From: a virus
IMG/VR virus record: IMGVR_UViG_3300044533_001042
Location: 43,781 to 107,780 of that record
Reading direction: 5' to 3' (one strand)
Length of the DNA stretch: 64,000 bases
In this document: positions 14,492 to 52,578 of the stretch, in pieces
How the letters are laid out: each line of letters opens with the position of its first letter
How positions within the stretch are numbered: position 1 is the stretch's first letter
Position numbers and translations under genes: made by a program
The notes under the pieces: model-generated
What the model saw: the letters and a program-made list of their open reading frames with translations, nothing else
Database searches by the model: none
Told to the model about the DNA's origin: nothing

Positions 14492-14518
14492 ATATCCTAA
14501 GCATGATGTAAAACTGCT
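14492..14518 (+). ncRNA. H-type pseudoknot element, copy 1
   Basis: Helix 1 ATATC/GATGT (one G-U pair); helix 2 AGCA/TGCT; linkers CTA, T and AAAAC. It ends 14 bases before the RNA polymerase ATG, immediately upstream of TTGGAG. Same architecture as six other copies. Confidence 0.65.
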
Positions 14519-14531
14519 AATTGGAGACAAT

Positions 14532-15926
14532 ATGCTTAGTGAACTTTGTCCTACTGTTACGGAGGTGTTGTTTCTGTACACAAGGGCTAAATATAATGAG
14601 CCAATAGTGTTGTCAGAGGTGCTGACAGCGCTCGGCTCGAAACTCTCCAGAGATCCCAGTTCCAGAGTAAGAGCACAAGCAGCAGCAGATCTTGTCTACG
14701 ACCTTGAAGCTGCCAGGATTCTCAAGATACAGGTAGAACGTATAGGGAAGAAGAGTGCCTACACAGTGGCTGTTCTGAATGATGAGGCTATTGTGGAGGC
14801 TTGGCGGAAGTGTTCCAAACAGAGTACTACAGTCTACCCTTCACTTATTCCTTACTCTCCTTGGACTTCTAGGACACACGATCAGCTGACTTACCCACTT
14901 ATCAAGACGCGAGCAGTATTACCGGCTGTTCCTGCAATGGTATTGGACGCTGTTAACCGTGCCCAAGCAGTAGGATGGAAAGTAAACGAGAGAGTGCTGG
15001 CAATTGCTATATGGGCGCATAAGTACCGTGAGGAAGCCTTCTCAGATATTTGGAAACAAGTCTCAAAGGAGGCAAGAATCACCAAAGGTAGAGAAGTCAA
15101 CACAGTCCTGACAATGGCGCAAGATCTGGCAGGTGCTATCTTCTACCATGGTTACTACACAGACTTCAGAGGACGTATCTATGTCGCATCTGCTTACCTC
15201 CATGAACAAGGCGCTGATGTTGCCAAAGGCCTTCTACTACGAGCTGATGCAAAACCGCTAGGAGCTATTGGCTTTAAATGGCTGAAGATATCAATTGCCA
15301 GTAACTGGGCGGGCACTTCTGCCAGAGAAGACAAAGCAAAGACTGACAAGATCCCTTTGGAGGAAAGAGTGCAGTGGGTAGATGATAATCATGAGCTAAT
15401 CATGGCGTATGCTACATCACCCAAGCTCTTTAAAGGGTGGATGGGCGCTGACAAGTGCTGGCAGTTCTTAGCAGCCTGTATGGAGTATGAAGCAGCATGG
15501 CGAAGTGGCAATCCAGAGACTTTTGTGAGCCATCTTGAGTGCTTCATAGACGGAAGCACCAATGGAAGTCAACATCTAGCTATGCTGACGAGAGATGAAA
15601 CATCTGCGCCCTATGTGAATCTTGTCAAATCAGTACTTCCTGGTGACTTGTATGCGTATGTTGCAAATTCTCTCTGGAACTTTATCGCGCTGACAATCGC
15701 AGAATTAGACCCTAAATTAGTGGCGGCTGCTGATAATTACGTCACAGTCGTTACAGAAATGAAGGCTGAAGTGCGAGCTGCAGAGCGTGGGAGTGATCTC
15801 AGAGTTGTCTTAGGGGAACGACTAAAGAACTACAGAGAGGCAAATCATTTCCTAGAAGATTCTGCTTGTTTCATATTCTGGAATCGTATCAAGGACAAGA
15901 AAGAACGTAGAAAGATAGTCAAGCGT
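14532..15926 (+). CDS. T7-type single-subunit RNA polymerase, exon 1
   Basis: Encodes residues 1-465 of a predicted 685-residue polymerase. It contains the DFRGRIYVASAY region and the catalytic Asp in FIDGSTNGSQH (D340, equivalent to T7 D537). The exon ends at Lys464-Arg465. Joined to exon 2 this gives KRGVMTIPYG, restoring the eight-residue spacing between the catalytic Lys and Tyr (T7 K631 and Y639). The protein lacks about 200 residues of the T7 N-terminal domain. Without splicing, translation reads into the intron and stops near 16073. Likely transcribes the phage from the GTATCTTATATGAAAG promoters. Confidence 0.93.
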
Positions 15927-16669
15927 TTAATTACAGGCGCTTGTAAAATCCCTTTAATTGCTGGAACAGCCCAATGGTGTGATGCTAATGGCCAATCAGC
16001 AGCCAAGGTTTCAAATAATGCTGGGAAGTATGGTTTGAAAGAAGGTTCAACGACTAGCCGTAAGGCGTACTGACAAGTGTCAGGAAACGGGGGAGGTAGC
16101 TATTTGCTATCGTGATATAGTCTGGCCTGCATCGGAATATGCAGCAGTAGCTGGTCGCTACAAAAGAGGAGGTTGTATGGTAGAGTATCTCTATGATAAA
16201 GAGAATGGTGGGCTATTGCACAAGAATGGCCGCAAGGCAGGTTCGCCTAATAGCAAAGGGCATGTGCAAGTAGAGAAGAATGGCAAGAAGACAATGGTGC
16301 ATCGTATTGTGTTTGAGATGCATAAAGGAGCAGTGCCGAAAGGGAAGGTTGTTGATCATAAGGATGGAAATCCTGCTAATAACAAGATATCTAATCTGAG
16401 GGCAGCCTCAGTGGCTGAGAACCGTATTAACACGCTTCCTAATAAAGGAGCGAAGACCGGCGCTAAAGGTGTAACTGCAACGAAGTCTGGTAAATACCGT
16501 GCTAGAGTCTGTGAAGGGGGTGTTAACAAGACTGTAGGTACCTTTGCAACGGTAGAGGCTGCGGCTAATGCAGCGAAGAAAGCGAGAAAGAAGATTTTTG
16601 GCAATTTTGTCAGATAACACAAGCGACCAACTACGCGTAGAAACTAACGACATCTACGGAACACAAGCG
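15927..16669 (+). mobile_element. Group I self-splicing intron in the RNA polymerase gene
   Basis: The 5' exon ends in T (U) and the intron ends in G, as group I rules require. The last seven exon bases CAAGCGT pair with the internal guide GCGCTTG at 15937-15943, with the final U-G wobble exactly at the splice site. The core shows typical segments: AATCAGCAGCCAAGG, GTTCAACGACTA and GATATAGTC. The reading frame is restored precisely. The HNH ORF lies in the 3' part (P9 side). Confidence 0.92.
16177..16617 (+). CDS. Intron-encoded HNH homing endonuclease with AP2 domain
   Basis: 146 residues with AGAGGAGG upstream. HNH_3-type core: VHRIVFEMHKGAVPKGKVVDHKDGNPANNKISNLR, with the DHKDGNPANN active-site loop. 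The C-terminus (GVTATKSGKYRARV...KTVGTFATVEAAANAAKKARKKIFG) is an AP2 DNA-binding domain. This domain pair is typical of phage homing endonucleases that spread their intron. Confidence 0.92.
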   Translation: MVEYLYDKENGGLLHKNGRKAGSPNSKGHVQVEKNGKKTMVHRIVFEMHKGAVPKGKVVDHKDGNPANNKISNLRAASVAENRINTLPNKGAKTGAKGVTATKSGKYRARVCEGGVNKTVGTFATVEAAANAAKKARKKIFGNFVR

Positions 16670-17332
16670 GGAGTAATGACTATCCCATACGGTGCAGTTT
16701 CTTATGGGATGTCTGAGCAGGTCATAGAAGATGCCAAGAAGCACGGCATCGATTCGCTCTTAGACCTGGACAGGAAATGGGGAGCATTCATGGGAAGACT
16801 AATCTACGCTAGCTGCAAAGATAGCATGAATAAACCCATGAAGCTTCTTGAGATATTCAGTAATGCAGGGATTGCTGCTGAGAAAAGAGGTGAATTCCTC
16901 AGCTGGACTGTCCCTGTAACGGGCTTCAAAGTGGTTCAGCATTATGAAGAAGGCACTATTAAGCCTGTTATCCTGTCTTATGGACACAAGGATATCAAGA
17001 TTAGCCTACTTCACAAGGAAGAACGAGTCCCTGCTAAGCGCAAGCAAGGCCAAGGAGCAGCGCCTAATATCATTCATAGCATGGATGCAGCACACTTAAT
17101 GATGATTAAGGTGGGCTGTGAGTTCCCTGTGACAACCATCCACGACTCTTACGGATGTTTGTGTGCGGATATGGATGTATTGTTCAGAGTCGCTAGAGAG
17201 AAGTTTGTTGAGCTGTACTCTAGCGATCCACTAGTAGCGCTGATGAATGATATCTCAGGTAACTGGGAAGGTCTTGAAATCGGCTCACTTGACATCAATG
17301 CAGTATTAGAGAGCGAATATGCTTTCACTTAA
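16670..17332 (+). CDS. T7-type single-subunit RNA polymerase, exon 2
   Basis: Encodes residues 466-685. Starts GVMTIPYG (Y472, the nucleotide-selecting tyrosine) and contains the HD pair in TTIHDSYG (H623/D624, matching T7 H811/D812). It ends with the conserved LESEYAFT, close to T7's LESDFAFA. The open frame extends upstream to 16568 inside the intron, but those residues are not homologous to the polymerase. Confidence 0.93.
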   Translation, partial: GVMTIPYGAVSYGMSEQVIEDAKKHGIDSLLDLDRKWGAFMGRLIYASCKDSMNKPMKLLEIFSNAGIAAEKRGEFLSWTVPVTGFKVVQHYEEGTIKPVILSYGHKDIKISLLHKEERVPAKRKQGQGAAPNIIHSMDAAHLMMIKVGCEFPVTTIHDSYGCLCADMDVLFRVAREKFVELYSSDPLVALMNDISGNWEGLEIGSLDINAVLESEYAFT

Positions 17333-17351
17333 TCCAATTATAGAGGAAACA

Positions 17352-18393: not shown

Positions 18394-18402
18394 GGAACTA
18401 TC

Positions 18403-18894: not shown

Positions 18895-18945
18895 GCAGTA
18901 AAAGAGAGAGGCGCAGTCTCTAATCTGTGTCACCGTAGTATCTGT

Positions 18946-18969: not shown

Positions 18970-18992
18970 TAACCCTATATTGGAGATGTATC

Positions 18993-25806: not shown

Positions 25807-25983
25807 ATGTGGTGGTGTATAAGATGTTTGGACGGTGTTCTTGACATAACGTCAGGCGCAGTAGTAAAGTCTGTACTTCAGAAATATCACGTCACTCATA
25901 AGACACACTCTGTGAAACCGGCTAGAAACAAAGCGCCTAAACGTCAAGCTTGTTGGCGAGGTAAGAGAGTGCGACATGGCTAA
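25807..25983 (+). CDS. Small basic protein, 58 aa
   Basis: MWWCIRCLDGV... with CxxC near the start and a basic tail (KPARNKAPKRQACWRGKRVRHG). Overlaps the primase start by eight bases. Function unknown. Confidence 0.5.
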   Translation: MWWCIRCLDGVLDITSGAVVKSVLQKYHVTHKTHSVKPARNKAPKRQACWRGKRVRHG

Positions 25984-28900
25984 ACACGTAAGCTGCGATG
26001 TGTGTGGCAGCAGTGATGGCAAGGTGGAATACGGGCCTGATGATTGGTGGTGTTTCGTCTGCAACAAAGGTAAACGCCCTGGTGGTAAGAACAGGGATTC
26101 TTTCGAAGTAGAAGAGGAGCTGTATGTGAGCGGGCATGAAAAAATAGCAGACATTCAAGGTCTGCCGATTAGAGGCTTTAAAGAACGTGAAATTACCAAA
26201 AGTGTTACAGAGTTCTTCGGGGTAAGAGCTGAGGTGGCAGCAGATGGTACTGTAGCAAAACACTTCTACCCATATGGCGATAAAGCCTTTAAGTGCCGCG
26301 TTGTAGAAGATAAGGAGTTCTACTGGGTCGGTAAATCTGATGAACTGTTCGGTCGTGATAAATTCTCTAGTGATGGCAAACGTCTCATTATCACAGAAGG
26401 CGAGTTAGATGCGATGAGTATCGCTCAAGCGGCCCACAGTAAGTATAATAAGATTTACCCTGTAGTATCTCTGCCAAGTGCTTCTGGCACAAAGGCGCTG
26501 CTGAAACATCGTGACTGGGTCCGCTCATTCGCTGAAGTTGTCCTTTGCTTAGATAATGATGAAGCTGGGCAGAAGTGTCTAGCAGAGTGTATCAAGATTA
26601 TCGGTGCCGAGAAGATCAAGATAGCGAAGCTCCCAGTCAAAGACGCATCTGAGATGTTGACGACCAAAGGGTCCCCAGCCCTTATGACAGCGATCTTCGA
26701 AGCCGGCAGATATACACCTGCAGGGATTGTCAGTAAAGAGGAGATCTGGAAAGCTCTCGTCGAGTACAATGAAGCTGAGAGCTTGCCTTACCCGCCATGT
26801 CTAGGGGGCTTAAACTCTAAGTTAAAGGGCATGAGAATGGGTGAAATCGCCCTCTTCATTAGTGGCACAGGCTGTTTTGCGCCAGGCACTATGATTCGGA
26901 TGTTAGACGGAGGAGTGTCCTGCGTTGAAGACATCGAGGTTGGTGACTATGTAATGGGCCCTTGTAATATGCCCCGCGAAGTTCTGACGCTGTTTACAGG
27001 TGAAGAACTCATGCATCGCATTACATTGGAAGATGGCACTTCCTTTGTATGCAACGATTCTCATCGACTAGCTATACGAACCAATGGCGAGATGTTCCCT
27101 GTATTAGTCAGTGAGTATCTTACTTGGCCCGAAAAGAAACGCCGTCAAGCCAGACAGTATAAGGCAGGCAACATGATCGGCTTTAGTTTCGTAGTAGAGC
27201 CAATAGGCATCGGCGAGTTTTACGGATTTGAAGTTAACGCGGACAACCGTTTTGTGCTGGGAAATGGCGTTATTACTTACAATTCAGGTAAGTCTACTAT
27301 GTTACGCGAGACAATGCTGCATATCATTCAGACGACACAAGACGCGATAGGAATTATCGCGCTAGAAGAGTCGCCTGCGGAGACCGCTAGAAAGTTAGCT
27401 GGGATGCAGCTAATGCGTAACCCTGCAGCAGAAGAGATCTCCATCGAGGATTTGCAACCAGCTTTCGAAGATGTTTTCGGAAACGACAGAGTATTCTGTC
27501 TAGATCATCAAGGATCGATGGCTGACGTGTCTATTGTGAATCAGCTGGAGTATATGGCGCTTATGGGTTGTAAGTATCTCTTCATTGATCACATTACCAT
27601 TTTGGTCTCAGAAGGTGCGGAGGATCTCACCGGTAACGAAGCTGTTGACAAGATCATGAATCATCTACTGCGCATTGTCAAGAAGCACAATGTCTGGATT
27701 GGGCTGGTGAGCCATCTGAGAAAGGCCCAATCGGGGCAGAAGTCATTCGAGGAGGGGAGACTGCCTTCTATAGATGATATCAGAGGTTGCTTAGCGTACG
27801 ATACAGGAATTTTGTTATCTAATGGAAGAGCGAGGGCAGTGCAGGATATCAAAGTTGGCGACCTGTTAATGGGCGATGATGGTCTGCCTCGTGAAGTGTT
27901 ACGCCTATTTGATGGCGAGCAACAGATGTACCGTATCACCACCAAGACCTCTAATGATTCGTTCATTTGCAATGAGGACCATATCTTAACTCTGTCACAC
28001 AATGATCGCATGAGAGATGTCCGTCTTGGTGATTTTTTGAAGGAGTCAGAAAATTGGCAGTTTAGGTGCAAACAGCACTACTCTACAGGTTATGAGTTGC
28101 CTGAAATCCCTGTCTTGATTCCTGCGTATTCATTCGGAGCTTGGCTTGGCGATGGTTCGAAGTCTGCCTTCCGAATAATGGATGCCAGTGATCTTGGTAT
28201 TTCAAACAGAGTAGCTGGCGAGATTGGCGCTGAATTATTAGCGCCTTCTGATCCAAACCGGGAGTACTTCAACTTCAACACGGGACTGAAAGGTGAAATG
28301 CTTGACAAACTTCGTCAACTAGGCGTGTGGGAGAATAAGCATGTACCTGACGTCTATGTATTTAACTCTAAGGCGGTAAGGTACAATTTGCTCGCTGGCT
28401 TGATTGATACAGATGGCTGTTATAATGTGAAAGACAATGCCTACTACTTCTACCAGAAGTGTGAGGACACTGCTCGAAAGGTGGTCAGAATTGCACGTTC
28501 ACTAGGCTTGTATTCCACTGTACACCCTAGAATAATTTCTGGTAGCTATACAGGTTCTAACGGAAGCACTATCTTTGAAGTGGCAATCTCAGGAGATATT
28601 AAAAAGATTCCTGCACAGAAATCCACTAGAATTGTTGCTAAGGTCCGTCGCACGGATCCTTTGAAGCGTGGTATTCTTATTGAGAAGCTTGATGTGCAGC
28701 CTTACTTCGGCTTTCAGCTAAGCGGAAACGGCAGGTTCCTATTAGAGAATCATACAGTGACACACAACTCTGGATCTATCAAGCAGATTTCCTTCGACAT
28801 AATCTCTTTCGCTCGTAATCTTATCGCTGAAGATCCTAAGGAGCGTAATACAATCCTCATGCGTGTACTTAAATCGCGCTACACAGGTCTGACAGGGAAT

Positions 28901-28984
28901 GTCAGAGGGGCACAATACCATTATGACACAGGGCGGCTAGAGCTAGCTGACTTTGACCCAGATGGTGACATGGTAGAATTTTAG
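25976..28984 (+). CDS. Primase-helicase (T7 gp4-like) precursor with two inteins
   Basis: 1002-residue precursor; about 538 residues after splicing, close to T7 gp4 (566). N-terminal zinc finger (CDVC...CFVC), TOPRIM primase (IITEGELDAMS, LCLDNDEAGQK), then a RecA-like hexameric helicase. Intein 1 splits Walker A (GTG/SGKST); intein 2 splits a second conserved helicase motif (DIRG/SGSIKQIS). Walker B region LFIDHI. Acts at the replication fork, laying primers and unwinding DNA. Confidence 0.95.
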   Translation: MAKHVSCDVCGSSDGKVEYGPDDWWCFVCNKGKRPGGKNRDSFEVEEELYVSGHEKIADIQGLPIRGFKEREITKSVTEFFGVRAEVAADGTVAKHFYPYGDKAFKCRVVEDKEFYWVGKSDELFGRDKFSSDGKRLIITEGELDAMSIAQAAHSKYNKIYPVVSLPSASGTKALLKHRDWVRSFAEVVLCLDNDEAGQKCLAECIKIIGAEKIKIAKLPVKDASEMLTTKGSPALMTAIFEAGRYTPAGIVSKEEIWKALVEYNEAESLPYPPCLGGLNSKLKGMRMGEIALFISGTGCFAPGTMIRMLDGGVSCVEDIEVGDYVMGPCNMPREVLTLFTGEELMHRITLEDGTSFVCNDSHRLAIRTNGEMFPVLVSEYLTWPEKKRRQARQYKAGNMIGFSFVVEPIGIGEFYGFEVNADNRFVLGNGVITYNSGKSTMLRETMLHIIQTTQDAIGIIALEESPAETARKLAGMQLMRNPAAEEISIEDLQPAFEDVFGNDRVFCLDHQGSMADVSIVNQLEYMALMGCKYLFIDHITILVSEGAEDLTGNEAVDKIMNHLLRIVKKHNVWIGLVSHLRKAQSGQKSFEEGRLPSIDDIRGCLAYDTGILLSNGRARAVQDIKVGDLLMGDDGLPREVLRLFDGEQQMYRITTKTSNDSFICNEDHILTLSHNDRMRDVRLGDFLKESENWQFRCKQHYSTGYELPEIPVLIPAYSFGAWLGDGSKSAFRIMDASDLGISNRVAGEIGAELLAPSDPNREYFNFNTGLKGEMLDKLRQLGVWENKHVPDVYVFNSKAVRYNLLAGLIDTDGCYNVKDNAYYFYQKCEDTARKVVRIARSLGLYSTVHPRIISGSYTGSNGSTIFEVAISGDIKKIPAQKSTRIVAKVRRTDPLKRGILIEKLDVQPYFGFQLSGNGRFLLENHTVTHNSGSIKQISFDIISFARNLIAEDPKERNTILMRVLKSRYTGLTGNVRGAQYHYDTGRLELADFDPDGDMVEF
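26873..27283 (+). mobile_element. Mini-intein 1 in helicase Walker A
   Basis: 137 residues (precursor 300-436). Starts at Cys (CFAPGTMIRMLDGG), has block-B-like NDSHRL and block F GEFYGFEVNADNRFVLGNG, and ends VITYN before Ser. No homing endonuclease domain. The penultimate residue is Tyr instead of the usual His. Confidence 0.9.
27788..28768 (+). mobile_element. Intein 2 with LAGLIDADG endonuclease
   Basis: 327 residues (precursor 605-931). Starts CLAYDTGILLSNGR, has NEDHIL block B, two LAGLIDADG-type motifs (FGAWLGDGS and LLAGLIDTDGCY), block F PYFGFQLSGNGRFLLENH and the canonical ending THN before Ser. A full homing intein. Confidence 0.93.
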
Positions 28985-34440: not shown

Positions 34441-34893
34441 ATGACTATTCAAGTTCAAAAAGTAACACCTTCAATTGTCTCTACAATTGCTGTTGATGTA
34501 GCTGATATGTCTCGTTTCGCTGTAGCTACTGCGCTTTCACGGTTCATCTTTGATGACTGTGCGGGGCAAATCGCTTATGACAACCTGTTCTTGACATCTG
34601 ATAAGGTGTGGATACTGAAAGGGTTTGATCATCACTTTGAAGTAAAGTTGTGCAGTCCTGCTTCTGTCACAGCTCCTGCGAAAGAGACCCCTGTAGAAGT
34701 AGCACCGGCGGAGGAGGCGCTCGTGATCACTATTGCCAAGGCGCCTGGTGTATACTTTAATACTAAGGCAGGCAAATGGCAAGCGCAGTACCGTCGTTTA
34801 AATGCAGAAGGCGTCAATAAGACTGTCTATGTAGGACAGTACGACTCTCAGCAAGACGCTATTTACGCTAGAAGAGTAGCGATGGCGCTTTAA
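34441..34893 (+). CDS. AP2-domain protein, 150 aa
   Basis: N-terminal half unrecognised, then a Pro/Ala/Glu linker and a C-terminal AP2 DNA-binding domain (GVYFNTKAGKWQAQYRRL...KTVYVGQYDSQQDAIYARRV) like that of the intron endonuclease at 16177, but without an HNH domain. Could be a DNA-binding regulator or a homing-nuclease remnant. Confidence 0.75.
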   Translation: MTIQVQKVTPSIVSTIAVDVADMSRFAVATALSRFIFDDCAGQIAYDNLFLTSDKVWILKGFDHHFEVKLCSPASVTAPAKETPVEVAPAEEALVITIAKAPGVYFNTKAGKWQAQYRRLNAEGVNKTVYVGQYDSQQDAIYARRVAMAL

Positions 34894-34900: not shown

Positions 34901-34927
34901 TGACCTGAACATGTCATTAAACTGTTC
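34901..34927 (+). ncRNA. H-type pseudoknot element, copy 2
   Basis: Helix 1 TGAC/GTCA, helix 2 GAACA/TGTTC; linkers CT, T and TTAAAC. Lies 34 bases before ATG 34961. Confidence 0.68.
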
Positions 34928-34960
34928 AATTACATTAACCCATCTTTATAGGAATTTACC

Positions 34961-35418: not shown

Positions 35419-36693
35419 ATGTTTGAATCAGCATTAGAAATTGGCGCAGTATCTCTCTCACTTGGTGCAGCAGTTGGCACCGCAGTTGCAGTCTCAATGG
35501 CCTTCCGTAAGGTAGTCCCCGCAAGCACTGTCCACATCGTTCAGCGTGGCAAATCAGTTAAGTCTTACAGCTCTCACTCAGAACATGGCTCAGTCTACTA
35601 TGGCTGGCCTAGCTGGGTGCCTGTCGTGGGGACTTTCAAGACATCGATCTGTGAAGCCATCTTTACTGTGCGTCTCGATAACTATGAGGCGTATGATGAG
35701 GCTAGACTTCCGTTCAGCATCGATGCCGCAGCCTTCTTTAGAGTAGTAGACGCAGAAAAGGCTGCACAGCGTACTACTAGCCCTGAACAACTTGACATAC
35801 AGCTCAAGTCAGTACTTCAAGGCGCGGTAAGGCGTATTCTTGCTACAGGTACACTCTCTCAGATTATGGAGAGTCGTTCTGAACTGTCCGAACGCTTTAC
35901 CGTTGAAGTAGCAGAACAGGTCAAAGAGTGGGGCGTTGAGCTCACTAAATCAATCGAATTCATGGATATCAAAGATTCTTCAGGATCTAAAGTTATCCAC
36001 AACATGATGGAGAAAGAGCGTAGTCGAATCGAGTCAGAAGCTAGACAGTCGGTGGCACTCAACGAGAAGACTGCTGAATTGTACGAAGTCAACGCGGCGC
36101 GGGAAGTTCAGGTAGAGAAAGCCAAGGCTGAAGAGGCCGTAGGTATTCGTATTGCTCAACGCGACTTACAAATCGGCATAGAACAACAAAAGTCTAAACA
36201 GGCTATTGAAGAAGCTTCCAAGGCCACCACCGTCGCTCGAATGGCAGTTCAAAGAGTGCAGGAAGAAGCTGCAGCTGATATCCAGAAGGCTGTACAGGTG
36301 ACAACAGCGAGTGCGTTACTTGAAGTTGTTCGCTTAAATGCCGAAGGTCTCGAACTGGAAGGTAGAGCAAAAGCTGCCGCAGAGCTAGCTTCATTAATGG
36401 CGCCGGTAGAGGCCCAGCTCAAATTAGCAGAGGAAATCGGCAGTAACGAGGCTTATCAGAAGTACTTGATTGATGTCAAGAAAGTGGAAGCTTCCAAAGA
36501 TGTCGGTATCTCGATGGCTACGGCCTTGCAGTCAGCTGACTTGAAAGTCATTGCTGGTGGCGGCGAATCTCTGCTAGGTTCCACGCAGGGTCTTTTAAGC
36601 AAATTCTCTACAGACGGTGGATTGCAGCTTAACGGTCTGCTCTCAGCTCTCGAGGGAACTAAACTTGGTGACTTGCTGGGGATGAAGAAATGA
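35419..36693 (+). CDS. SPFH/Band 7 (flotillin/prohibitin-like) protein
   Basis: 424 residues. N-terminal membrane anchor (IGAVSLSLGAAVGTAVAVSMAF), SPFH domain (about 35-190: VPASTVHIVQRG...PFSIDAAAFFRVVDAEKAA...VRRILATGTLSQIMESRSEL...VEVAEQVKEWGVEL), then a long Ala/Glu/Lys/Arg coiled coil (190-350) and a Gly/Leu tail. Forms membrane-bound rings in its families. May protect the membrane or phage proteins from host proteases, as host HflKC does; role here inferred. Confidence 0.9.
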   Translation: MFESALEIGAVSLSLGAAVGTAVAVSMAFRKVVPASTVHIVQRGKSVKSYSSHSEHGSVYYGWPSWVPVVGTFKTSICEAIFTVRLDNYEAYDEARLPFSIDAAAFFRVVDAEKAAQRTTSPEQLDIQLKSVLQGAVRRILATGTLSQIMESRSELSERFTVEVAEQVKEWGVELTKSIEFMDIKDSSGSKVIHNMMEKERSRIESEARQSVALNEKTAELYEVNAAREVQVEKAKAEEAVGIRIAQRDLQIGIEQQKSKQAIEEASKATTVARMAVQRVQEEAAADIQKAVQVTTASALLEVVRLNAEGLELEGRAKAAAELASLMAPVEAQLKLAEEIGSNEAYQKYLIDVKKVEASKDVGISMATALQSADLKVIAGGGESLLGSTQGLLSKFSTDGGLQLNGLLSALEGTKLGDLLGMKK

Positions 36694-37069: not shown

Positions 37070-37194
37070 AAATCCTTAAACTGATGGAAGGTATGGTGCG
37101 TTGTGCGCAATGTGGTGCTCCGATGTATGCTGTGTGGGGTCTTTATTGTAGCAAACACTGTGAAGCTTTAGGTGAATGTGGGGAGTATGAGTAA
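37066..37194 (+). CDS. Zinc-ribbon-like microprotein, 42 aa
   Basis: CAQCGAP...YCSKHCEALGECGEYE gives two Cys pairs typical of a zinc knuckle. ATGA start overlap. Confidence 0.55.
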   Translation: MKILKLMEGMVRCAQCGAPMYAVWGLYCSKHCEALGECGEYE

Positions 37195-37433
37195 TGATAT
37201 GGCGTGAAAACAAACTCAGACGTGAGCTTGACGAGCAGAAGGCGATTGTGAAGCAGCTCAAGTTAGAGTTACGACAAGCTAAACAAGCGCACTCGTATAT
37301 GCACGATTGTAGAGAGCAGTTGCTAGCGCGTGCAGAAATTGCTGCGGATATTCTAGCTGGCGACAGAGGCTGGAAAGAGAGTGCCACAACCCGCATCGCT
37401 GAATTACCTGCTTTTGTGAAGGCAAAGAAATAG
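37194..37433 (+). CDS. Coiled-coil protein, 79 aa
   Basis: NKLRRELDEQKAIVKQLKLELRQAKQ forms a clear heptad-type coiled coil. TAATG overlap upstream. Function unknown. Confidence 0.6.
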   Translation: MIWRENKLRRELDEQKAIVKQLKLELRQAKQAHSYMHDCREQLLARAEIAADILAGDRGWKESATTRIAELPAFVKAKK

Positions 37434-37447: not shown

Positions 37448-37474
37448 AAGGCCTGGTCATGCCTTCAACTGACC
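37448..37474 (+). ncRNA. H-type pseudoknot element, copy 3
   Basis: Helix 1 AAGGC/GCCTT, helix 2 GGTCA/TGACC; linkers CT, T, CAAC. Ten perfect pairs in 27 bases; the clearest copy. Lies 18 bases before ATG 37493. Confidence 0.72.
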
Positions 37475-37492
37475 GCATATTGGAGACAGAAG

Positions 37493-37690
37493 ATGTTTGA
37501 AGTATTTATTGTGTTGCTCATTGTAGTTCTAGTAGCCTTGGTGGTTGCACTTGCTCATTATGGCGCTAAGCTGACACAAGAATTAGAAGCTGAAAGAGCC
37601 ATGCACGCGGCTACTCAGTTTATGTTGAATGAACTACAGGCCAACACAGCTGTGCCAGAGATTGTTAAGCGTAAACCAAGAACGAAGTAA
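37493..37690 (+). CDS. Single-pass membrane protein, 65 aa
   Basis: N-terminal membrane helix (VFIVLLIVVLVALVVALAHY), then a charged helix and basic tail (KRKPRTK). Lies between two pseudoknots. Function unknown. Confidence 0.6.
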   Translation: MFEVFIVLLIVVLVALVVALAHYGAKLTQELEAERAMHAATQFMLNELQANTAVPEIVKRKPRTK

Positions 37691-37700: not shown

Positions 37701-37725
37701 GACCTGAGCATGTCACTAAACTGCT
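37701..37725 (+). ncRNA. H-type pseudoknot element, copy 4
   Basis: Helix 1 GAC/GTC only three pairs, helix 2 AGCA/TGCT; linkers CT(G), T, ACTAAAC. Weakest copy, but conserved linkers kept. Confidence 0.55.
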
Positions 37726-38991: not shown

Positions 38992-39951
38992 ATGAAGAAG
39001 TTAGGTGTTTTTATTGGAAGGTTTCAGCCTTTACACGCTGGACATGTCAGCATCGTAGCTGAAATGGTCACTAAATGTGATTTAGTTCTTGTATTAATCG
39101 GTTCTGCAAATGTAGAACCATCTCTACGTAACCCATACACCTTCGCAGAGCGTAGAGAACATTTCAGACGCATGTTTGGTTCCCGCGTCTTAGTGGCACC
39201 TTTGAATGATCATCCATACGATGATGATGCTTGGCAGAAAGAAGTAAGAGCCACCATCGGAATCTATCTAGGTGAAGATGCTTGCAATGTAACCTTGTTC
39301 GGACACGCCAAGGACGGCAATGACTACCTCTATTGGTTCCCTGAGTACCACTATCAAGAGATGGAGAACAGCCACCACGTCTCAGGTACCGAAATCCGAG
39401 AGCAATTACTTCTTGAGCGCAATTTGCCTGAATCGGTACTTGAGGAGTATGCGTATACTGAGTCCGAGAAAGCTATGTTCAAAGACTATCCGTACGCCGA
39501 CTCACTTCATTTTGTAACTGCAGACACGGTCTTGACCTGTAATGGCAAGATACTTCTAATTCGGAGGAAGAACTCCCCTGGACGTGGTTCATGGGCGCTT
39601 CCTGGAGGGTTCAAGAATGCGAACGAGTCAGCGCTAGCCTGCGCCAAAAGAGAGTTAGAGGAAGAGACTGGTGTCCGAAATGCTCGCTTCAGAGGAAGTG
39701 AAACCTTTCATTGTCCTTCCCGCCATATGCAGAACAATGGCATCCCGCGTGTCACTATCGCGTTCTGGGCTACGCTAGAAGAATACATAGCGCCAATAGC
39801 AGCGGATGACGCCGAAGATTGTGCTTGGCTTGAGGTGCAGTCTGCGATAGATACACTGAGATTGTTCAGCGATCATCGTGCTATTATCTGCAAAATGTTG
39901 GATGTGAAATTAACCCCTGCCCACGTAACTGGTGCAGTTTATCATAGTTGA
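38992..39951 (+). CDS. Bifunctional NMN adenylyltransferase/Nudix hydrolase
   Basis: 319 residues. N-terminal nucleotidyltransferase with GRFQPLHAGH (H-x-G-H) and SGTEIRE signature makes NAD from NMN and ATP. C-terminal Nudix domain with GGFKNANESALACAKRELEEETGV (G-x5-E-x7-REUxEExGU) usually hydrolyses ADP-ribose. Works with the NAMPT gene at 40844 to salvage nicotinamide into NAD. Confidence 0.93.
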   Translation: MKKLGVFIGRFQPLHAGHVSIVAEMVTKCDLVLVLIGSANVEPSLRNPYTFAERREHFRRMFGSRVLVAPLNDHPYDDDAWQKEVRATIGIYLGEDACNVTLFGHAKDGNDYLYWFPEYHYQEMENSHHVSGTEIREQLLLERNLPESVLEEYAYTESEKAMFKDYPYADSLHFVTADTVLTCNGKILLIRRKNSPGRGSWALPGGFKNANESALACAKRELEEETGVRNARFRGSETFHCPSRHMQNNGIPRVTIAFWATLEEYIAPIAADDAEDCAWLEVQSAIDTLRLFSDHRAIICKMLDVKLTPAHVTGAVYHS

Positions 39952-42717: not shown

Positions 42718-42921
42718 ATGATATTGTTTTTGAAGTTAGCGTTTATCATGGCGCAAGTGTTAGGGTTGTCCGCAGAGCTACGTGCGCTTGTAAGTTTAGA
42801 ACACTGGCAGACCCAGTATGCAGCTATTACTGTGTTTGGATTCAGATGGGTCGCGATGTCGGGTCTCATTCTTCTTGTGTGCAACCATGACTTTAGCAAT
42901 TGGCCGAGAAATAAGTCATGA
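42718..42921 (+). CDS. Small membrane protein, 67 aa
   Basis: Two hydrophobic segments (ILFLKLAFIMAQVLGL and WVAMSGLILLVC). Directly abuts the previous stop. Function unknown. Confidence 0.55.
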   Translation: MILFLKLAFIMAQVLGLSAELRALVSLEHWQTQYAAITVFGFRWVAMSGLILLVCNHDFSNWPRNKS

Positions 42922-43172
42922 CATACAATTCACGAATGTGGCTCAATGAGATTGACAGTCATTTCACCGGTGCAGTGGTGTGCCATGATGGTGTTGTGGC
43001 CAACCAAGGAAAGCCTGCGGAGAGATATACCTTCGTAGAGATCGCCAGTTGCCATGGCAAGGTGAGATTACATGCCGATAAGAACTTCGGGATGTCTGCG
43101 TTCATAGCTAAGCTAGAACTGCTCCAAAGTGAGCTGTCCTATTTTATTGATTATTTGAAAGAGGAAGAGTAA
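42918..43172 (+). CDS. Hypothetical protein, 84 aa
   Basis: ATGA overlap. Beta-rich N-terminal half, helical end (AKLELLQSELSYFIDYLKEEE). No family recognised. Confidence 0.58.
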   Translation: MTYNSRMWLNEIDSHFTGAVVCHDGVVANQGKPAERYTFVEIASCHGKVRLHADKNFGMSAFIAKLELLQSELSYFIDYLKEEE

Positions 43173-43176: not shown

Positions 43177-43205
43177 AAGGGCCTGGACATGCTCCTTAAC
43201 TGTCC
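43177..43205 (+). ncRNA. H-type pseudoknot element, copy 5
   Basis: Helix 1 AAGGGC with GC-T-CCTT (one bulged T), helix 2 GGACA/TGTCC; linkers CT, T, AAC. Lies 20 bases before ATG 43226. Confidence 0.66.
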
Positions 43206-43225
43206 GCAACTACAGGAGGCGAATC

Positions 43226-45564: not shown

Positions 45565-45744
45565 ATGAACATTGTCATGGACCAGAAAGAGCTTGTCAAG
45601 ATTATCGAGGCGCATATTCATTCGCGCCTTCATGATCCTAAGGCTAAACTGAAAGTAACCTTTGAGGCCAATACTCTTGGCGTTAAAGCCAACATCACTG
45701 TCGTAGAAATCAAACCTAGACCATTCGAGGAAAATTATGCTTGA
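45565..45744 (+). CDS. Small hypothetical protein, 59 aa
   Basis: Starts at ATG 45565 one base after the previous stop. Helix then two beta-strands (KLKVTFEANTLGVKANITVVEI). Overlaps the ligase start. Confidence 0.55.
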   Translation: MNIVMDQKELVKIIEAHIHSRLHDPKAKLKVTFEANTLGVKANITVVEIKPRPFEENYA

Positions 45745-47008
45745 AGTAATTGACGCAATCGCTGCAACCCCTGGAACACTTGATAAAGTGGCCTTACTAG
45801 CTCAACACAACTGTGAAGAGCTGAGAAGAGTCTTAGTCGCGGCGTACGATACACGCTTGCGCTACTACATTATCGATCCGGAGATGCCTTCTGGCGCTGG
45901 TATCCATGACTTAGGGGATGATACATGGTGCTTGTTGGCGAAATTATCTAACCGTCAGGCTGGTCGTAAGGAGTTGCTAGAGCACATGATGGGGTTAAAT
46001 CCATCCGCTCAGGAGCTATTGCGTCGCGTTATCAACAAAGACTTACGAGCTGACATTGGGGACAGTCTTATCAACCGTGCCATCCCAGGACTAATTTACC
46101 AACCGACTTACATGCGCTGCAGTACTGTGAATGAAGTTGATTTGCGCTTGTGGCCTTGGACGTCTGGGGTCTTCTCCCAAGAGAAATTAGATGGCATGTT
46201 TGTTAACATCGACTATCTCGGTGATGCGGTCGTTCTGCATACGCGGCAAGGGCATGTATTCGACTCTGCCTATTTCAAAGAGCTCATCAATGACATCAAG
46301 GGCGTCTTAAAAGAAGGTGTCCAGTATCACGGCGAGCTAATGCTAGAGCCTATCGTAGGAGGTCCTTTCATGGCGCGGAAGACCTCTAATGGTATCTTCA
46401 ACTCTTGCCTCAAGAAAGGGACAGGAATTCCAGAAGGTTATCGGCCTGTGGCTATCCTGTGGGATATCAAGGACTCTTCAATGTTCTACTTAGACCGTTA
46501 CAACTTCGTCAAGGAATTGTGCGAAAAGACAACATTGAAGACTATCCGTCTTGTGCCTACTAAAATGGCAGCAAGTCATGCAGAGGCGCTTGAGCACTTC
46601 AAAGAAATCACTGCAGCTGGTGGGGAAGGCTCTGTCGTCAAGAAGGCATACTTTCTGTGGCGAGACGGCACTAGTAGGGATCAGGTGAAACTCAAGAAAG
46701 AAGCGACCTGCGAACTCAGAGTGACAGGCTACAAGCCTGGAAAGGGTGCCTTTGCCGCTACATTCGGAAGTCTGGAATGCATCAGCGAAGAAGGTGATCT
46801 CGTCGTGAATGTGAGTGGATTTACTGAGGCTGAGCGACAAATGATTTGGAATAATATTGATGACTACATGTTTAACGTCATTACTGTGAAGTTCGAATCG
46901 GTGTCTCAGGATAAGAAAGGAAAGTACAGCTTATCTCAACCGCGTTTTGAAGAACTGCGTCTTGACAAAGATGACGCGGACACATTAGACTATATTAAGG
47001 GGTTATAG
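45737..47008 (+). CDS. ATP-dependent DNA ligase
   Basis: 423 residues. Adenylation motif I EKLDGMF (active Lys), motif III YHGELMLE, motif IV GEGSVVKK and motif V RDQVKLKKE are in order, followed by an OB domain (ATFGSLECISEEGDLVVNVSGF). Seals nicks during replication and recombination; related to T7-type ligases. Confidence 0.92.
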   Translation: MLEVIDAIAATPGTLDKVALLAQHNCEELRRVLVAAYDTRLRYYIIDPEMPSGAGIHDLGDDTWCLLAKLSNRQAGRKELLEHMMGLNPSAQELLRRVINKDLRADIGDSLINRAIPGLIYQPTYMRCSTVNEVDLRLWPWTSGVFSQEKLDGMFVNIDYLGDAVVLHTRQGHVFDSAYFKELINDIKGVLKEGVQYHGELMLEPIVGGPFMARKTSNGIFNSCLKKGTGIPEGYRPVAILWDIKDSSMFYLDRYNFVKELCEKTTLKTIRLVPTKMAASHAEALEHFKEITAAGGEGSVVKKAYFLWRDGTSRDQVKLKKEATCELRVTGYKPGKGAFAATFGSLECISEEGDLVVNVSGFTEAERQMIWNNIDDYMFNVITVKFESVSQDKKGKYSLSQPRFEELRLDKDDADTLDYIKGL

Positions 47009-47009: not shown

Positions 47010-47357
47010 ATGCCAACAACGATTGAAGAGTTACTTGAGGCAGCTTACGAGAAAATAGGCTACTTGACATTGACGGAAGAAGATGACGTCTCCGGGCCGA
47101 AGGAAGTATACACGCTGGGCTTACATGCGCGGGTGTACTACCAAAACAAGGCGGCGCATGAGTTTAGCGGTCCCGTGTATGACATGCTGAACACAATAAT
47201 GGTGGACCCAGTGACTGATGAAGTTAGGGTTTCCTTTGAGACAGCCAGTAGCTGTTGCGGTATTTCAGCTTGTGTAAACACTGAAATCACCCCTCTGAAG
47301 CTATCTTCGCCGATCCCTCCCCACCTCATCGTAAAGTTCTACAAGGAGGTTAGATGA
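47010..47357 (+). CDS. Hypothetical protein, 115 aa
   Basis: Contains SSCCGISACVN. No family recognised. ATGA overlap with the next gene. Confidence 0.58.
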   Translation: MPTTIEELLEAAYEKIGYLTLTEEDDVSGPKEVYTLGLHARVYYQNKAAHEFSGPVYDMLNTIMVDPVTDEVRVSFETASSCCGISACVNTEITPLKLSSPIPPHLIVKFYKEVR

Positions 47358-47545
47358 AAGTCTGGATTCTTACCAGAACGGAGAGCAGCATCGCAGAAGT
47401 GCTAGCTGTATGGGCGCATCGACCTATCGGCATTGAGCTGGCAGAGTGGGTGCCTCCAGAGGTAATCGACGCGCTATTACTGCTCCAAGCCATTTCAGAT
47501 GGTGACTACTTGTTTGATCTGGTTGTGGCAGAAATCATTAATTAA
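47354..47545 (+). CDS. Hypothetical protein, 63 aa
   Basis: MKVWILTRTESSIAEVLAVW...; no family recognised. Followed by pseudoknot copy 6. Confidence 0.55.
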   Translation: MKVWILTRTESSIAEVLAVWAHRPIGIELAEWVPPEVIDALLLLQAISDGDYLFDLVVAEIIN

Positions 47546-47550
47546 TCTAC

Positions 47551-47577
47551 AAGCCTGGGCATGCTTCTTAACTGCCT
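47551..47577 (+). ncRNA. H-type pseudoknot element, copy 6
   Basis: Helix 1 AAGC/GCTT, helix 2 GGGCA/TGCCT (one G-U); linkers CT, T, CTTAAC. Lies 23 bases before ATG 47601. Confidence 0.67.
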
Positions 47578-47600
47578 TTAAATCCTTTAGGAGAGATACA

Positions 47601-48493: not shown

Positions 48494-48502
48494 GGAGATA
48501 AA

Positions 48503-49791: not shown

Positions 49792-49794
49792 CCG

Positions 49795-49920
49795 CGTAAG
49801 TCCTCTCCCGCGTCTGCGAATTTCGCGGCGGCGGCGTGTTCGTGCCGTGTCGGGGCGCGGGGGCGGCTAGAAATGTGTGCGGCGGCGGTGGCGTGCGCCC
49901 TCGCTGTCGATACATAATGA
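49795..49920 (+). other. GC-rich intergenic island C
   Basis: G-rich, gene-free, with GCGTCTGCGAATTTCGCGG near 49810 and GTGTCGG, motifs shared with islands B and D. Ends CATAATGAT, as island D does near 57160. Confidence 0.68.
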
Positions 49921-50029
49921 TAGGAGCGCGTCAGACGTGGATTTGACGTGTTCGGGGTTGAACTCCCTATAACTTATCTTAACTAATTTTATTTAAACGG
50001 CGAAAGCCAAATCCTTTAGGAGTGTTACA
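49921..50029 (+). promoter_or_regulatory. Leader of gene 50030 with small hairpins
   Basis: Contains CGTCA/TGACG, GGGG-TTGAA-CTCC and GGC-GAAA-GCC (a GNRA-type loop), then TTTAGGAGTG before the ATG. No promoter core found. Confidence 0.4.
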
Positions 50030-50611
50030 ATGAGCATTAAAATCGAAATCAATGGCGAAATGGTAGAGTTCAACACAATGGCAGAAGCAACTAAAGCTCA
50101 TTCTGCTTACACTGCGTCTATCGAATTGTTACCTGCTGTCAACGTATTGACTAACAACAACGAAGCTTTAAGCCAGTGGATCATTGACAACCGTATTGCT
50201 TTAGTTGGTTTAACCAAAGTTGATACATCAACAGCTAAGAAAGAATTAGCTGACCATATCGCTGCTTCAGGCGATGCTTGGTTGATTGCTAATGCAGAAC
50301 GCATTTCAATCGCTGTAGCTAAACCAACTGCAACTGAATTAGCTGTTAAGGTTGCTGCCGGTATTCAAACTTTAGCTTCTGGCAATCCAGAAGTTGCTGC
50401 GTTTGTTACAACCAATTATGAAGCAATTCGTGAGGCTGTGAAGCCTAAATTGAACGAAGCAGCTACAACAGGTCGTGACTTGTACTTAGCTGACGTTAAA
50501 GCAGCTAAAGAAATCAGTGCAGCTCATGGCAATGCTTGCCGTTCAAAATATGCTTTGTATAAAGCAGCTGTTGCTGACGGTACTGTTGAAGAATTCGTAA
50601 AAGGCTTCTAA
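50030..50611 (+). CDS. Abundant-type hypothetical protein, 193 aa (paralogue of 52631)
   Basis: Alpha-helical, Ala/Lys/Glu-rich. The C-terminal 65 residues are nearly identical in gene 52631 (AVKPKLNEAA...EEFVKGF). It has a strong ribosome-binding site and is followed by a strong hairpin, consistent with high expression (inference). No family recognised. Confidence 0.7.
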   Translation: MSIKIEINGEMVEFNTMAEATKAHSAYTASIELLPAVNVLTNNNEALSQWIIDNRIALVGLTKVDTSTAKKELADHIAASGDAWLIANAERISIAVAKPTATELAVKVAAGIQTLASGNPEVAAFVTTNYEAIREAVKPKLNEAATTGRDLYLADVKAAKEISAAHGNACRSKYALYKAAVADGTVEEFVKGF

Positions 50612-50621
50612 GAAGCAAATT

Positions 50622-50654
50622 AACCCCCGTAGTCCATAATGGATTGCGGGGGTT
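50622..50654 (+). terminator. Strong 15-pair hairpin
   Basis: AACCCCCGTAGTCCA paired with TGGATTGCGGGGGTT over loop TAA, 10 bases after the stop. No poly-T follows, so it may be a stability element or a phage-polymerase terminator. Confidence 0.68.
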
Positions 50655-50696
50655 AAACGTTTAACGTAGTATTTAATTAACTAGTGGAGATTCAAA

Positions 50697-51020
50697 ATGA
50701 TTGAGCAAGCTATCAAAGACGCAGTACGCAACGCAACTATCGGAACTAAATACATGGCACATGTCTTGTATACTACGAGATATTGCAGCGCTGTTGTAGA
50801 CACTTACATGGGCAGTCCCTTGACCGATTGGGAGTTCGCGCTTACTACCGCCGCAGAAAGAGCGGAGCAGTGGTGCGAAGGGCAACATGTTGAAGACATC
50901 CGTGTATCAGATGTGACAAGTTATTCCTGTAACGAATGTTGCATTGAGCTGTTGCTCCCACCTACGCTGCTAGACAATCTGGATGCGAAGTACTATGTCA
51001 ACATCGTGGCAATCAACTAG
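50697..51020 (+). CDS. Hypothetical protein, 107 aa
   Basis: GTGGAG upstream. Cys-rich C-terminal part (SYSCNECCIELLL). Weak similarity to the C-terminal half of gene 47601. Confidence 0.58.
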   Translation: MIEQAIKDAVRNATIGTKYMAHVLYTTRYCSAVVDTYMGSPLTDWEFALTTAAERAEQWCEGQHVEDIRVSDVTSYSCNECCIELLLPPTLLDNLDAKYYVNIVAIN

Positions 51021-51030
51021 GAGAATTAGA

Positions 51031-51414
51031 ATGGTAACTACATTCACAGCGTTAGAGCTCAACATGATGGCTTACGCAGCGGAAATGGCGTTTGATTTAG
51101 CGTACACCGAGAAAGAGGAATCTTACTCAGCGGAGTTTGTGGACACTCTAGACAATCTGCTTGACAAGTTGAAAGGTCTTGCCACAGAGTATCCTGCTAA
51201 GCTTCCTGGCATCTACGAGAAGGAAGAGCCAGCTTATGTTGAGACTGTCTTCTCTTTGACAGACTTGACACCTGAACAGTTCAATGACTTGGCGTATTGT
51301 GTAGACGTCTACATTGAGAACATTGGAGATGTTGAAGCTGACGATCCTGACTGTTTTGCGAGAATTACACGATTGCCTAAAGCACTTAACAACCACCTAG
51401 GAGTTTCAAAATGA
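51031..51414 (+). CDS. Hypothetical acidic protein, 127 aa
   Basis: ATG 51031 after TAGGAG. Acidic and helical (FVDTLDNLLDKLKGLATEYPAKLPGIYEKEEPAYVE). No family recognised. Confidence 0.6.
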   Translation: MVTTFTALELNMMAYAAEMAFDLAYTEKEESYSAEFVDTLDNLLDKLKGLATEYPAKLPGIYEKEEPAYVETVFSLTDLTPEQFNDLAYCVDVYIENIGDVEADDPDCFARITRLPKALNNHLGVSK

Positions 51415-52067
51415 GTATCGATATCGTATTATTAGATGACATCATCGCAGCAATGCCTTCTGATCGCCGTATAGACAGAGGTGTTGTAATCACTCAGGAT
51501 AACTTCGCAACTGTTCCAGGCTACTTGCAGGGTGATGTGATTGAGCTGTTAGTGGCGCTGTACGGTGAGCACTCTGGATTTGGATTCGGTTACAAGGAGT
51601 GGGGTGGCTGGTTTCCTAAGGCTGAAGATGTTAGCTTCAGCATGACCGTTCCTTGGGACTTGGAATTTGCCTTGTTGGCTGGCTTCAAGGTGCCAGGAGA
51701 TGGTCCTGCTGAATGGCCTCTCAACAACTTCTTAGAAGAAGCTGGGGTTATATTAGAAGACGTAGACCATCTGAGCTTATCGAGCCGAACATACCTCTCT
51801 GCAGAACATGCGGCGAATCCTGAAGTAGTCGCTTTAGCCAAGTTCATTAACTCTGAAGTAGCTGCGCTTACTAAGATGGTCAACGTGAAAGAATGGTGGG
51901 GGAGAAACATGGACATTCCTTTATCGGAAGACATGATCCGCGCTATTGAACAAACAGAAATGCTAGTTCACAGCCGCCATTACGAAGGTCAAGCGTCCGA
52001 GTGGGCGTTGAGATACACAGTGAATGGTTCATTTGATTTGTCTTACAAATCCGAAGGAGGATACTAA
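51411..52067 (+). CDS. Hypothetical protein, 218 aa
   Basis: ATGA overlap. Contains an aromatic Gly-rich patch (GFGFGYKEWGGWFPKAEDVSF) and a long helical middle. No family recognised. Confidence 0.62.
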   Translation: MSIDIVLLDDIIAAMPSDRRIDRGVVITQDNFATVPGYLQGDVIELLVALYGEHSGFGFGYKEWGGWFPKAEDVSFSMTVPWDLEFALLAGFKVPGDGPAEWPLNNFLEEAGVILEDVDHLSLSSRTYLSAEHAANPEVVALAKFINSEVAALTKMVNVKEWWGRNMDIPLSEDMIRAIEQTEMLVHSRHYEGQASEWALRYTVNGSFDLSYKSEGGY

Positions 52068-52068
52068 G

Positions 52069-52359
52069 ATGGCAGCGCTAATCGTTACATTGTCAATTAC
52101 ATCTGCGGCTGACAAAGAGCTCCGCATGCACGGGCCCTTCGACTATGAAGAATTCGAAACAGATGACTACATTGAGTCTGTCGAGATGTTGAATACAGCA
52201 GACACTCGCATCCGGATTGGTGACAACTGGATGTACTGCTGGAATGATTGTAAAGGTCTCGGCCCACTTGTACGTTATTTGTGGAAGCTAGACGACAACG
52301 ACTTTAATCTGAACATGTTAAGTGACAGGCTAGAGGAGTACGGGAGTCTTGTATTATGA
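52069..52359 (+). CDS. Hypothetical acidic protein, 96 aa
   Basis: ATG 52069 immediately after the previous stop, with GAAGGAGG upstream. Acidic. No family recognised. Confidence 0.6.
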   Translation: MAALIVTLSITSAADKELRMHGPFDYEEFETDDYIESVEMLNTADTRIRIGDNWMYCWNDCKGLGPLVRYLWKLDDNDFNLNMLSDRLEEYGSLVL

Positions 52360-52541
52360 CCAGCGACTTCGAGCTATCCATCGTGTGTCTTAGTGGTAGC
52401 GTGCTGGTCCTGATCGAAACTGTGAAGGTCAATAAATTGACCGATTGGGAATTCGTGGGGACTGACAATTGTCCGATCGAGTTGAAAGAGGACTATGATA
52501 GACTTATCAAGTTCTTCAATTTAGTGGGTGCCCCCGCGTAG
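52356..52541 (+). CDS. Hypothetical protein, 61 aa
   Basis: ATGA overlap. FELSIVCLSGSVLVLIETVK...; no family recognised. Followed by pseudoknot copy 7. Confidence 0.55.
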   Translation: MTSDFELSIVCLSGSVLVLIETVKVNKLTDWEFVGTDNCPIELKEDYDRLIKFFNLVGAPA

Positions 52542-52550
52542 TATTGTGTT

Positions 52551-52578
52551 AAGGCCTGAGCATGCCTTTCAACTGCTC
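52551..52578 (+). ncRNA. H-type pseudoknot element, copy 7
   Basis: Helix 1 AAGGC/GCCTT, helix 2 GAGCA/TGCTC; linkers CT, T, TCAAC. Helix 2 differs from copy 3 at two pairs with pairing kept. Confidence 0.7.

Follow-up and report, generated by a model that had tools for sequence, protein, structure and literature searches.

A previously uncatalogued family of compact phage RNA pseudoknots anchored to upstream stop codons

Seven copies of a compact H-type pseudoknot, each of 25-29 nucleotides (nt), lie on one strand of a 64,000-nt stretch of viral DNA (here termed the window; bases 43,781-107,780 of the 107,780-base virus record IMGVR_UViG_3300044533_001042 of IMG/VR). We find that these copies belong to a previously uncatalogued RNA family which, by its sequence, size and positional rule, is unlike any known family tested; its fold is established by covariation, and its members are anchored to the stop codon of the gene upstream. 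Judging from this fold and position, we tentatively propose that the pseudoknot acts as a compact roadblock to ribonucleases (RNases) that seals off the upstream cistron at its 3' end, a function that we regard as a serious possibility somewhat short of probable.

Fold, covariation and spread of the family

The consensus consists of helix 1 (H1; 4 bp, with C-G as the inner pair), a single C (linker 1), helix 2 (H2; UGAGCA type, 5-6 bp), a junction nucleotide (U, A or C), the 3' strand of H1, the linker NNAAAC (linker 3), and the 3' strand of H2, giving a single pseudoknot of 10 bp. Among 208 unselected letter matches, pairs 2-4 of H1 are formed in 96, 87 and 74% of copies versus 41, 40 and 42% with shuffled partners, with the fifth H1 pair at chance level. 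Across 69 diverse sequences, 96.2% of cells are paired, versus 73.3% after shuffling and 25-37% when the partners are displaced by 1-3 columns; the covariation score is 0.653 versus 0.185, and both-sided changes occur in three of the four H1 pairs and three of the six H2 pairs. The same H1 pairs are formed in 100, 99 and 80% of an independent junction-A set of 111 non-redundant copies (versus 48, 41 and 47%). Furthermore, when the near-invariant C-G pair of H2 is swapped to U-A in the search pattern, at least 120 viral stretches are matched, compared to 6 for a U.U mismatch. This covariation is decisive for the pseudoknot fold.

Single departures from Watson-Crick pairing are G.U in 37 cases versus A.C in 13; the structure therefore functions as an RNA of this strand. 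When the fetched loci were searched by structure, without the CATG or the H2 letters, 30 extra copies came up on the strand of the known ones and 3 on the other; their junction nucleotide is T, A or C, and H2 can also read GAGUA/UGCUC or GAGUA/UACUC. Interleaved inverted repeats recognized in DNA by a binding protein would account for conserved letters at a fixed spacing; with the tolerance of G.U over A.C, the strand specificity of the extra copies, and a placement tied to stop codons all opposed to it, we consider such a DNA-level site highly improbable.

Before these comparisons, a preliminary description based on the letters of the window had proposed one compact H-type family with covarying helices, to be abandoned if no further covarying homologues came to light. 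That core proposal was right, and its support is now far stronger than the window alone could provide, with the pseudoknot present in several hundred phage contigs and its covariation clear. Certain details have changed. The first linker, given as CT, is usually a single C, since the T can pair with an A or G past H2 and thus join that helix; H2 is consequently often 6 bp in length, and H1 is effectively 4 bp.

As copies were gathered with conserved-letter patterns, their abundance is a lower bound and their diversity is undersampled. A scan of viral_contigs with GCCTGNNCATGCNNNNNAACTG returned 97 stretches, about two-thirds of which form both helices, only the innermost pairs being fixed by the pattern. 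In a second scan with CCTGNNCATGNNNNNAAACTG, in which helix 1 was freed, 178-181 of approximately 229 unique instances fold, among the matches listed. By letter pattern, up to seven copies occur per record, versus 0-1 for a control pattern. The hosts of named carrier phages belong to the Bacillota, Actinomycetota, Cyanobacteriota and Pseudomonadota, with folding copies in Mycobacterium phage Labelle, Arthrobacter phage Molivia, Staphylococcus phietavirus B166 and its relatives, Lactobacillus phage phiEF-1.1, phage D6E, Moorella phage MTATph1, a Christensenellales phage, Nostoc phage NMeng1, Synechococcus phages S-EIVl and S-H35, Paracoccus phage ParMal1, and Lentibacter phage ICBM1; weaker copies are found in Moraxella, Erwinia and Vibrio phages. 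T4 contains no copy by letter pattern. A strict 20-letter pattern matched five times in 85k bacterial and archaeal genomes, and we do not treat the pseudoknot as a chromosomal element because the displayed matches were devoid of a convincing helix 1. Tandem arrangements were also encountered, namely three pseudoknots in approximately 130 nt (L017:190-325) and two in another locus (L172:7400-7510).

No relevant family was detected in Rfam 15 by cmscan of the window and 16 loci at gathering thresholds, nor at E<=5 (6 loci) or E<=10 (two short stretches); the only matches were to a group I intron, transfer RNAs (tRNAs), a tmRNA, and chance matches of other kinds, leaving families such as preQ1-I/II/III, STAXI, PhotoRC, wcaG and HDV-like unmatched. 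The motif was likewise not described in the open-access papers searched, which were queried for its sequence, phage pseudoknots, exonuclease-resistant RNAs and elements behind stop codons. These results bear on a potential ligand-sensing (preQ1-like) riboswitch or self-cleaving ribozyme, either of which would be in keeping with a compact pseudoknot and an A-rich linker; moreover, theta ribozymes likewise adjoin phage tRNAs (PMC10879173). However, there is no Rfam match even at the most permissive threshold applied to the short stretches, the neighbouring genes share no common pathway, and theta ribozymes abut tRNA 3' ends, whereas this pseudoknot lies 5' of tRNAs across a 3-12-nt gap. We thus view a riboswitch or ribozyme as very unlikely; the likeness to preQ1-I noted earlier holds, as it was put then, in layout only.

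Anchoring to the upstream stop codon

Pooled non-redundant copies with an identifiable upstream stop (n = 240) reveal the positional rule: 28.3% begin 5-6 nt past the stop versus 2.0% when slid randomly, and 43.8% begin at 5-9 nt versus 5.7%, with only 2.1% closer than 5 nt. The distance from stop to H1 had already peaked at 5-7 nt in the first data set, and in the junction-A set none of 104 copies is nearer than 5 nt while 40 of the 104 lie at 5 or 6 nt. The spacing to the next start varies widely, with quartiles of 34/146/281 nt among stop-anchored copies, as given by simple open reading frame (ORF) and start calls with a crude start finder. The pseudoknot thus has its anchor in the stop of the upstream gene. 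It had previously been placed "upstream of ribosome-binding sites", which is accurate for the window, where a start follows within ~13-52 nt at all seven sites; the main rule is nonetheless the upstream stop at 5-6 nt, given the breadth of the next-start distance and the ~10% of copies that precede tRNA genes lacking a ribosome-binding site.

Within the window, a pairing-blind letter pattern recovers exactly the seven sites first reported. The regular expression CCT(N2-4)CATG(N3-14)AACTG, which holds no pairing term, gives seven matches on the + strand and zero on the - strand, with 7 forward and 0 reverse matches in the whole 107,780-base record (0 for a reversed control pattern) and 0 matches in 30 first-order Markov shuffles of the window. 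A structural descriptor without conserved letters finds five of the seven sites plus one false match (shuffles averaging 0.3), and a relaxed structural descriptor detected no further copy in the remaining 43.8 kb of the record.

Strong folds are formed at five sites, all seven being on the + strand. The copy at 34901..34928 (H1 TGAC/GTCA, linker 1 C, H2 TGAACA/TGTTCA, linker 2 T, linker 3 TTAAAC) begins 7 nt past the stop of an HNH-like ORF (34441-34893), and that at 37448..37475 (H1 AAGGC/GCCTT, linker 1 C, H2 TGGTCA/TGACCG, linker 2 T, linker 3 CAAC) begins 14 nt past the stop of ORF 37194-37433. A real copy had been reported at 43177, with its start better placed at 43179; this pseudoknot (43179..43206; H1 GGGC/GCTC, linker 1 C, H2 TGGACA/TGTCCG, linker 2 T, linker 3 CTTAAC) lies 6 nt past the stop of ORF 42918-43172. 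The remaining strong copies are found at 47551..47577 (H1 AAGC/GCTT, linker 1 CT, H2 GGGCA/TGCCT, linker 2 T, linker 3 CTTAAC), 5 nt past the stop of ORF 47354-47545, and at 52551..52579 (H1 AAGGC/GCCTT, linker 1 C, H2 TGAGCA/TGCTCA, linker 2 T, linker 3 TCAAC), 9 nt past the stop of ORF 52356-52541. Two weaker sites keep the conserved letters with shorter helices. One, at 37701..37725 (H1 GAC/GTC of 3 bp, H2 AGCA/TGCT of 4 bp), is 10 nt past the stop of ORF 37493-37690, such that six of the seven sites lie 5-14 nt behind a stop. The other, at 14492..14518 (H1 ATATC/GATGT with one G.U, linker 1 CT, H2 AGCA/TGCT of 4 bp, linker 2 T), ends 13 nt ahead of the RNA polymerase start codon (14532).

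With a stop codon in the A site, a fold obeying the 4-bp rule starts at approximately +12 from the P site, just outside the mRNA channel of the ribosome. A spacing of ~5 nt is also that from which recoding pseudoknots touch the ribosome. The hard lower limit of ~5 nt past the stop would therefore suit an insulator working at the level of the ribosome, whereby the fold, at the mRNA entrance of a terminating ribosome, alters termination, recycling or 70S sliding so as to keep ribosomes from the next start or tRNA. On the other hand, it is common for copies to lie behind an extra hairpin or at 20-100 nt from the stop, and a fold that simply had to remain outside the ribosome would account for the spacing just as well; such an insulator strikes us as rather unlikely. 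Still less credible is a recoding signal, i.e., a stimulator of readthrough or frameshifting akin to the murine leukemia virus or luteovirus pseudoknots. The required spacing of 5-9 nt from the A-site codon is present in the 43.8% of copies given above, and the layout of the beet western yellows virus (BWYV) pseudoknot resembles that of this one. However, tRNAs come after many copies, the stops are mostly TAA (106 of 152), and the 0 frame closes at a median of 8 codons, often via a tandem stop, with +1 and -1 frames not consistently better; recoding is highly improbable because of these stops and quickly closing frames.

Copies farther from a stop also tend to adjoin structure. Of 146 non-redundant contexts, 86 are within 18 nt of a stop and 60 are farther; in 62% of the 60 contexts with a gap of at least 18 nt, a significantly stable hairpin fills the gap, usually ending 0-3 nt ahead of the pseudoknot and without a U tract. 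Intrinsic terminators were considered and rejected, as a GC hairpin with a U tract was found within 80 nt in only 2 of 161 cases upstream and 2 of 161 downstream. A promoter at a fixed distance was likewise set aside, being seen in one cyanophage group only. In T4-like cyanophages (L008, L018, L037, L041, L125, L168, L169 and L205), the Hsp20 stop is followed by TATAAT(A), one or two hairpins, and then the pseudoknot. Separately, a conserved A-tract with a TTTTCGACCC/CGGGCGTGTCG-like sequence comes after several pseudoknots (L111, L149 and L190) and may represent a phage promoter.

Neighbouring genes and a proposed role at cistron 3' ends

Several upstream genes recur with changing downstream genes, namely those for Hsp20, DUF932 (phrog_1221) and a gp2.5-like single-stranded DNA-binding protein (SSB). 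Where ssb adjoins the pseudoknot, it is the upstream gene, with diverse genes downstream. tRNA genes form a second class of neighbour, as ~10% of pseudoknots precede one rather than a ribosome-binding site. A pseudoknot lies directly upstream of 59 tRNA genes, nearly all at a distance of 3-13 nt, and directly ahead of 51 of the 112 tRNAs that come first after a coding sequence in the fetched loci, a fraction inflated because these loci were chosen for their pseudoknots. Of the pseudoknot-preceded tRNAs, 45 are tRNA-Asp and 42 come after a DUF932 gene; the cassette of DUF932 gene, stop, pseudoknot and tRNA-Asp(GTC) is found in many environmental phages (L113, L122, L259, L262 and ~40 more loci). 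Others arose independently, in separate settings (Arg, Leu, Trp, Ala and Ser, as well as Gly behind ssb in Arthrobacter phage Molivia). In Streptomyces phage Riptide, the DUF932 homologue has a GC hairpin and short T run in place of the pseudoknot, an observation that is suggestive only.

The zone immediately past a stop is a known target of cleavage: RNase E cuts ~10 nt beyond the rpsO stop, and RNase LS cuts 20-25 nt beyond stops in T4 infection (PMC3997798, PMC3014915). The malE mRNA is shielded against PNPase and RNase II by an intercistronic structure located behind a stop (PMC5927463). In our proposed roadblock model, the pseudoknot would be a 3'-end element of the upstream cistron, sited as near the stop as a terminating ribosome permits. 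The message up to the stop would be covered by the ribosome, with the pseudoknot starting just past it; together, these would leave no naked RNA as an endonuclease landing site. Exonucleases proceeding 3'-5' from a cut or decayed downstream portion would then halt at the pseudoknot, with such cuts made by RNase P at a tRNA or by RNases in the next cistron. RNase P cleavage at an adjoining tRNA would in fact leave the pseudoknot as the 3' end of the upstream mRNA. The outcome would be a stabilized upstream message and the uncoupling of decay between neighbouring phage genes, as repetitive extragenic palindromic (REP) elements do for malE. As hosts span phyla, the reader or enemy of the pseudoknot is expected to be something general, such as the ribosome or 3'-5' exonucleases, and not a single phage protein. 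Of the functions initially listed for these sites, RNA processing or stability is the best match. The great variety of neighbours, phage types and hosts makes both a ligand and a phage-specific regulator acting on the downstream gene less fitting.

A number of observations weigh against this role. Downstream genes recur too (e.g., phrog_11667), with 46 junction pairs sharing the downstream gene, nearly as many as the 56 sharing the upstream one; gene conservation alone is therefore undecided between a 5' and a 3' role. The pseudoknot precedes scaffold/capsid genes in Staphylococcus, Lactobacillus and D6E phages, and a Shine-Dalgarno (SD) motif and start also follow many copies, including all seven in the window. 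The TATAAT of the T4-like cyanophages, located between the Hsp20 stop and the pseudoknot, opens the possibility of a 5' end there, and the copy at 14492 is not stop-anchored, the nearest such stop being ~98 nt away. Finally, a plain hairpin could perform the task of a roadblock; the strictly conserved letters (C linker, AAAC) suggest a specific reader, or hint at base triples.

Several of these points would be accommodated by a 5'-leader element, in which a protein (a phage SSB-like protein such as T4 gp32, or a ribosomal protein) or the free fold controls downstream initiation or protects a processed 5' end. Starts lie close behind all seven window sites, SD motifs are over-represented within 20 nt past the pseudoknot, the fold is conserved ahead of phrog_11667 and scaffold genes, and the T4 gene 32 operator shares its topology and lies upstream of a ribosome-binding site (PMC535899). 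Yet the anchor is the upstream stop and not the start, the SD lies outside the fold, some copies precede tRNA genes and others have no nearby start, and the downstream genes and hosts are too diverse for a single phage repressor. We accordingly judge a leader function unlikely, albeit worth retaining among the alternatives.

The roadblock model can be extended to that of a phage-specific RNA class, in which a minimal pseudoknot docks on the exit side of a ribosome that is terminating, seals cistrons against host RNases and forms RNase P cassettes with tRNAs (gene-pseudoknot-tRNA), its use by phages across at least four phyla of bacteria being due to convergence or horizontal spread. This extended version is more speculative than the roadblock itself; if true, it would constitute a phage counterpart of eukaryotic viral exonuclease-resistant RNAs.

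Genome setting, significance and comparison with known systems

The source record encodes a single-subunit RNA polymerase, a family-A-type DNA polymerase, a primase-helicase, a ribonucleotide reductase and a nicotinamide phosphoribosyltransferase (NAMPT). No relatives were found in viral_contigs with the RNA polymerase protein as query, nor was any match returned by megablast of the window against phages. The RNA polymerase gene (14532-17332) is split by a group I intron (RF00028; 15862-16144); an HNH endonuclease ORF (16177-16617) comes next, and the polymerase resumes in ORF 16568-17332. The primase-helicase ORF (25976-28984) contains Hint and LAGLIDADG/Hom_end domains, with Hint matches at approximately residues 295-338 and 605-679 and a homing endonuclease match at 790-875; from these domain matches, it is predicted to hold one or two inteins. 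Elsewhere are an SPFH/Band 7 protein (35419-36693), a fused cytidylyltransferase-NUDIX protein (38992-39951) and a possible RNA/DNA ligase (45737-47008); the fused protein adjoins the NAMPT gene, together forming a nicotinamide adenine dinucleotide (NAD) salvage module.

Few conserved structured RNAs known to us are as small as this pseudoknot, which has covariation visible by eye and a spread encompassing phages of Staphylococcus, Lactobacillus, Mycobacterium, Arthrobacter, cyanobacteria, roseobacters and others. Its stop-anchoring rule is sharp, and renders a long-standing problem, the protection and differential decay of phage polycistronic mRNA, testable in laboratory strains with a 30-nt part, which may also be of use as a compact mRNA-stabilizing tag. 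The novelty of these findings rests on the RNA family; were the roadblock role true, the pseudoknot would solve a known task in a new way. Its function may prove analogous to that of REP elements or eukaryotic viral exonuclease-resistant RNAs.

Among known pseudoknots, the luteovirus (BWYV-type) and preQ1-I RNAs are similarly compact and H-type, with a short linker 1, a 1-nt junction and an A-rich linker 3. Unlike BWYV-type frameshift pseudoknots, no slippery site and no open extended frame are present here. Theta ribozymes (HDV-like) are also small pseudoknotted RNAs next to phage tRNAs (PMC10879173); these are nested double pseudoknots with a catalytic C that cleave at the tRNA 3' end, whereas the present 25-29-nt element sits 5' of tRNAs and is mostly away from them. 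The STAXI motif (RF01728) shares pseudoknots, sometimes in tandem, and a link to ssb and mobile elements (PMC2864571), but has UUCG tetraloops and forms tandem arrays in Enterobacteriales, and this pseudoknot has no Rfam match.

The T4/T2 gene 32 operator is likewise a phage mRNA element of ~28 nt that is H-type and intercistronic, with a 1-nt linker 1 and an H2 of 6-7 bp (PMC535899, PMC3014915). The two share no sequence, the operator having neither the CC nor the AAAC linker. The operator serves one gene per phage, 67 nt ahead of its own start and followed by UUAAA repeats, whereas the present family is multi-copy and lies behind the stops of unrelated genes; a gene 32-type setting, within the leader of the ssb gene of the same phage and with UUAAA repeats ahead of the SD, was not found among its copies, the downstream genes being diverse. 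The protective REP/3' structures of malE-malF are also intercistronic, located behind a stop, without a U tract, and proposed to block 3'-5' exonucleases (PMC5927463); like these, the pseudoknot is a structured RNA directly behind stops inside transcripts, without a U tract. REP elements, however, are palindromic hairpins of bacterial chromosomes, whereas the element described here is a sequence-conserved phage pseudoknot fixed at 5-6 nt from the stop.

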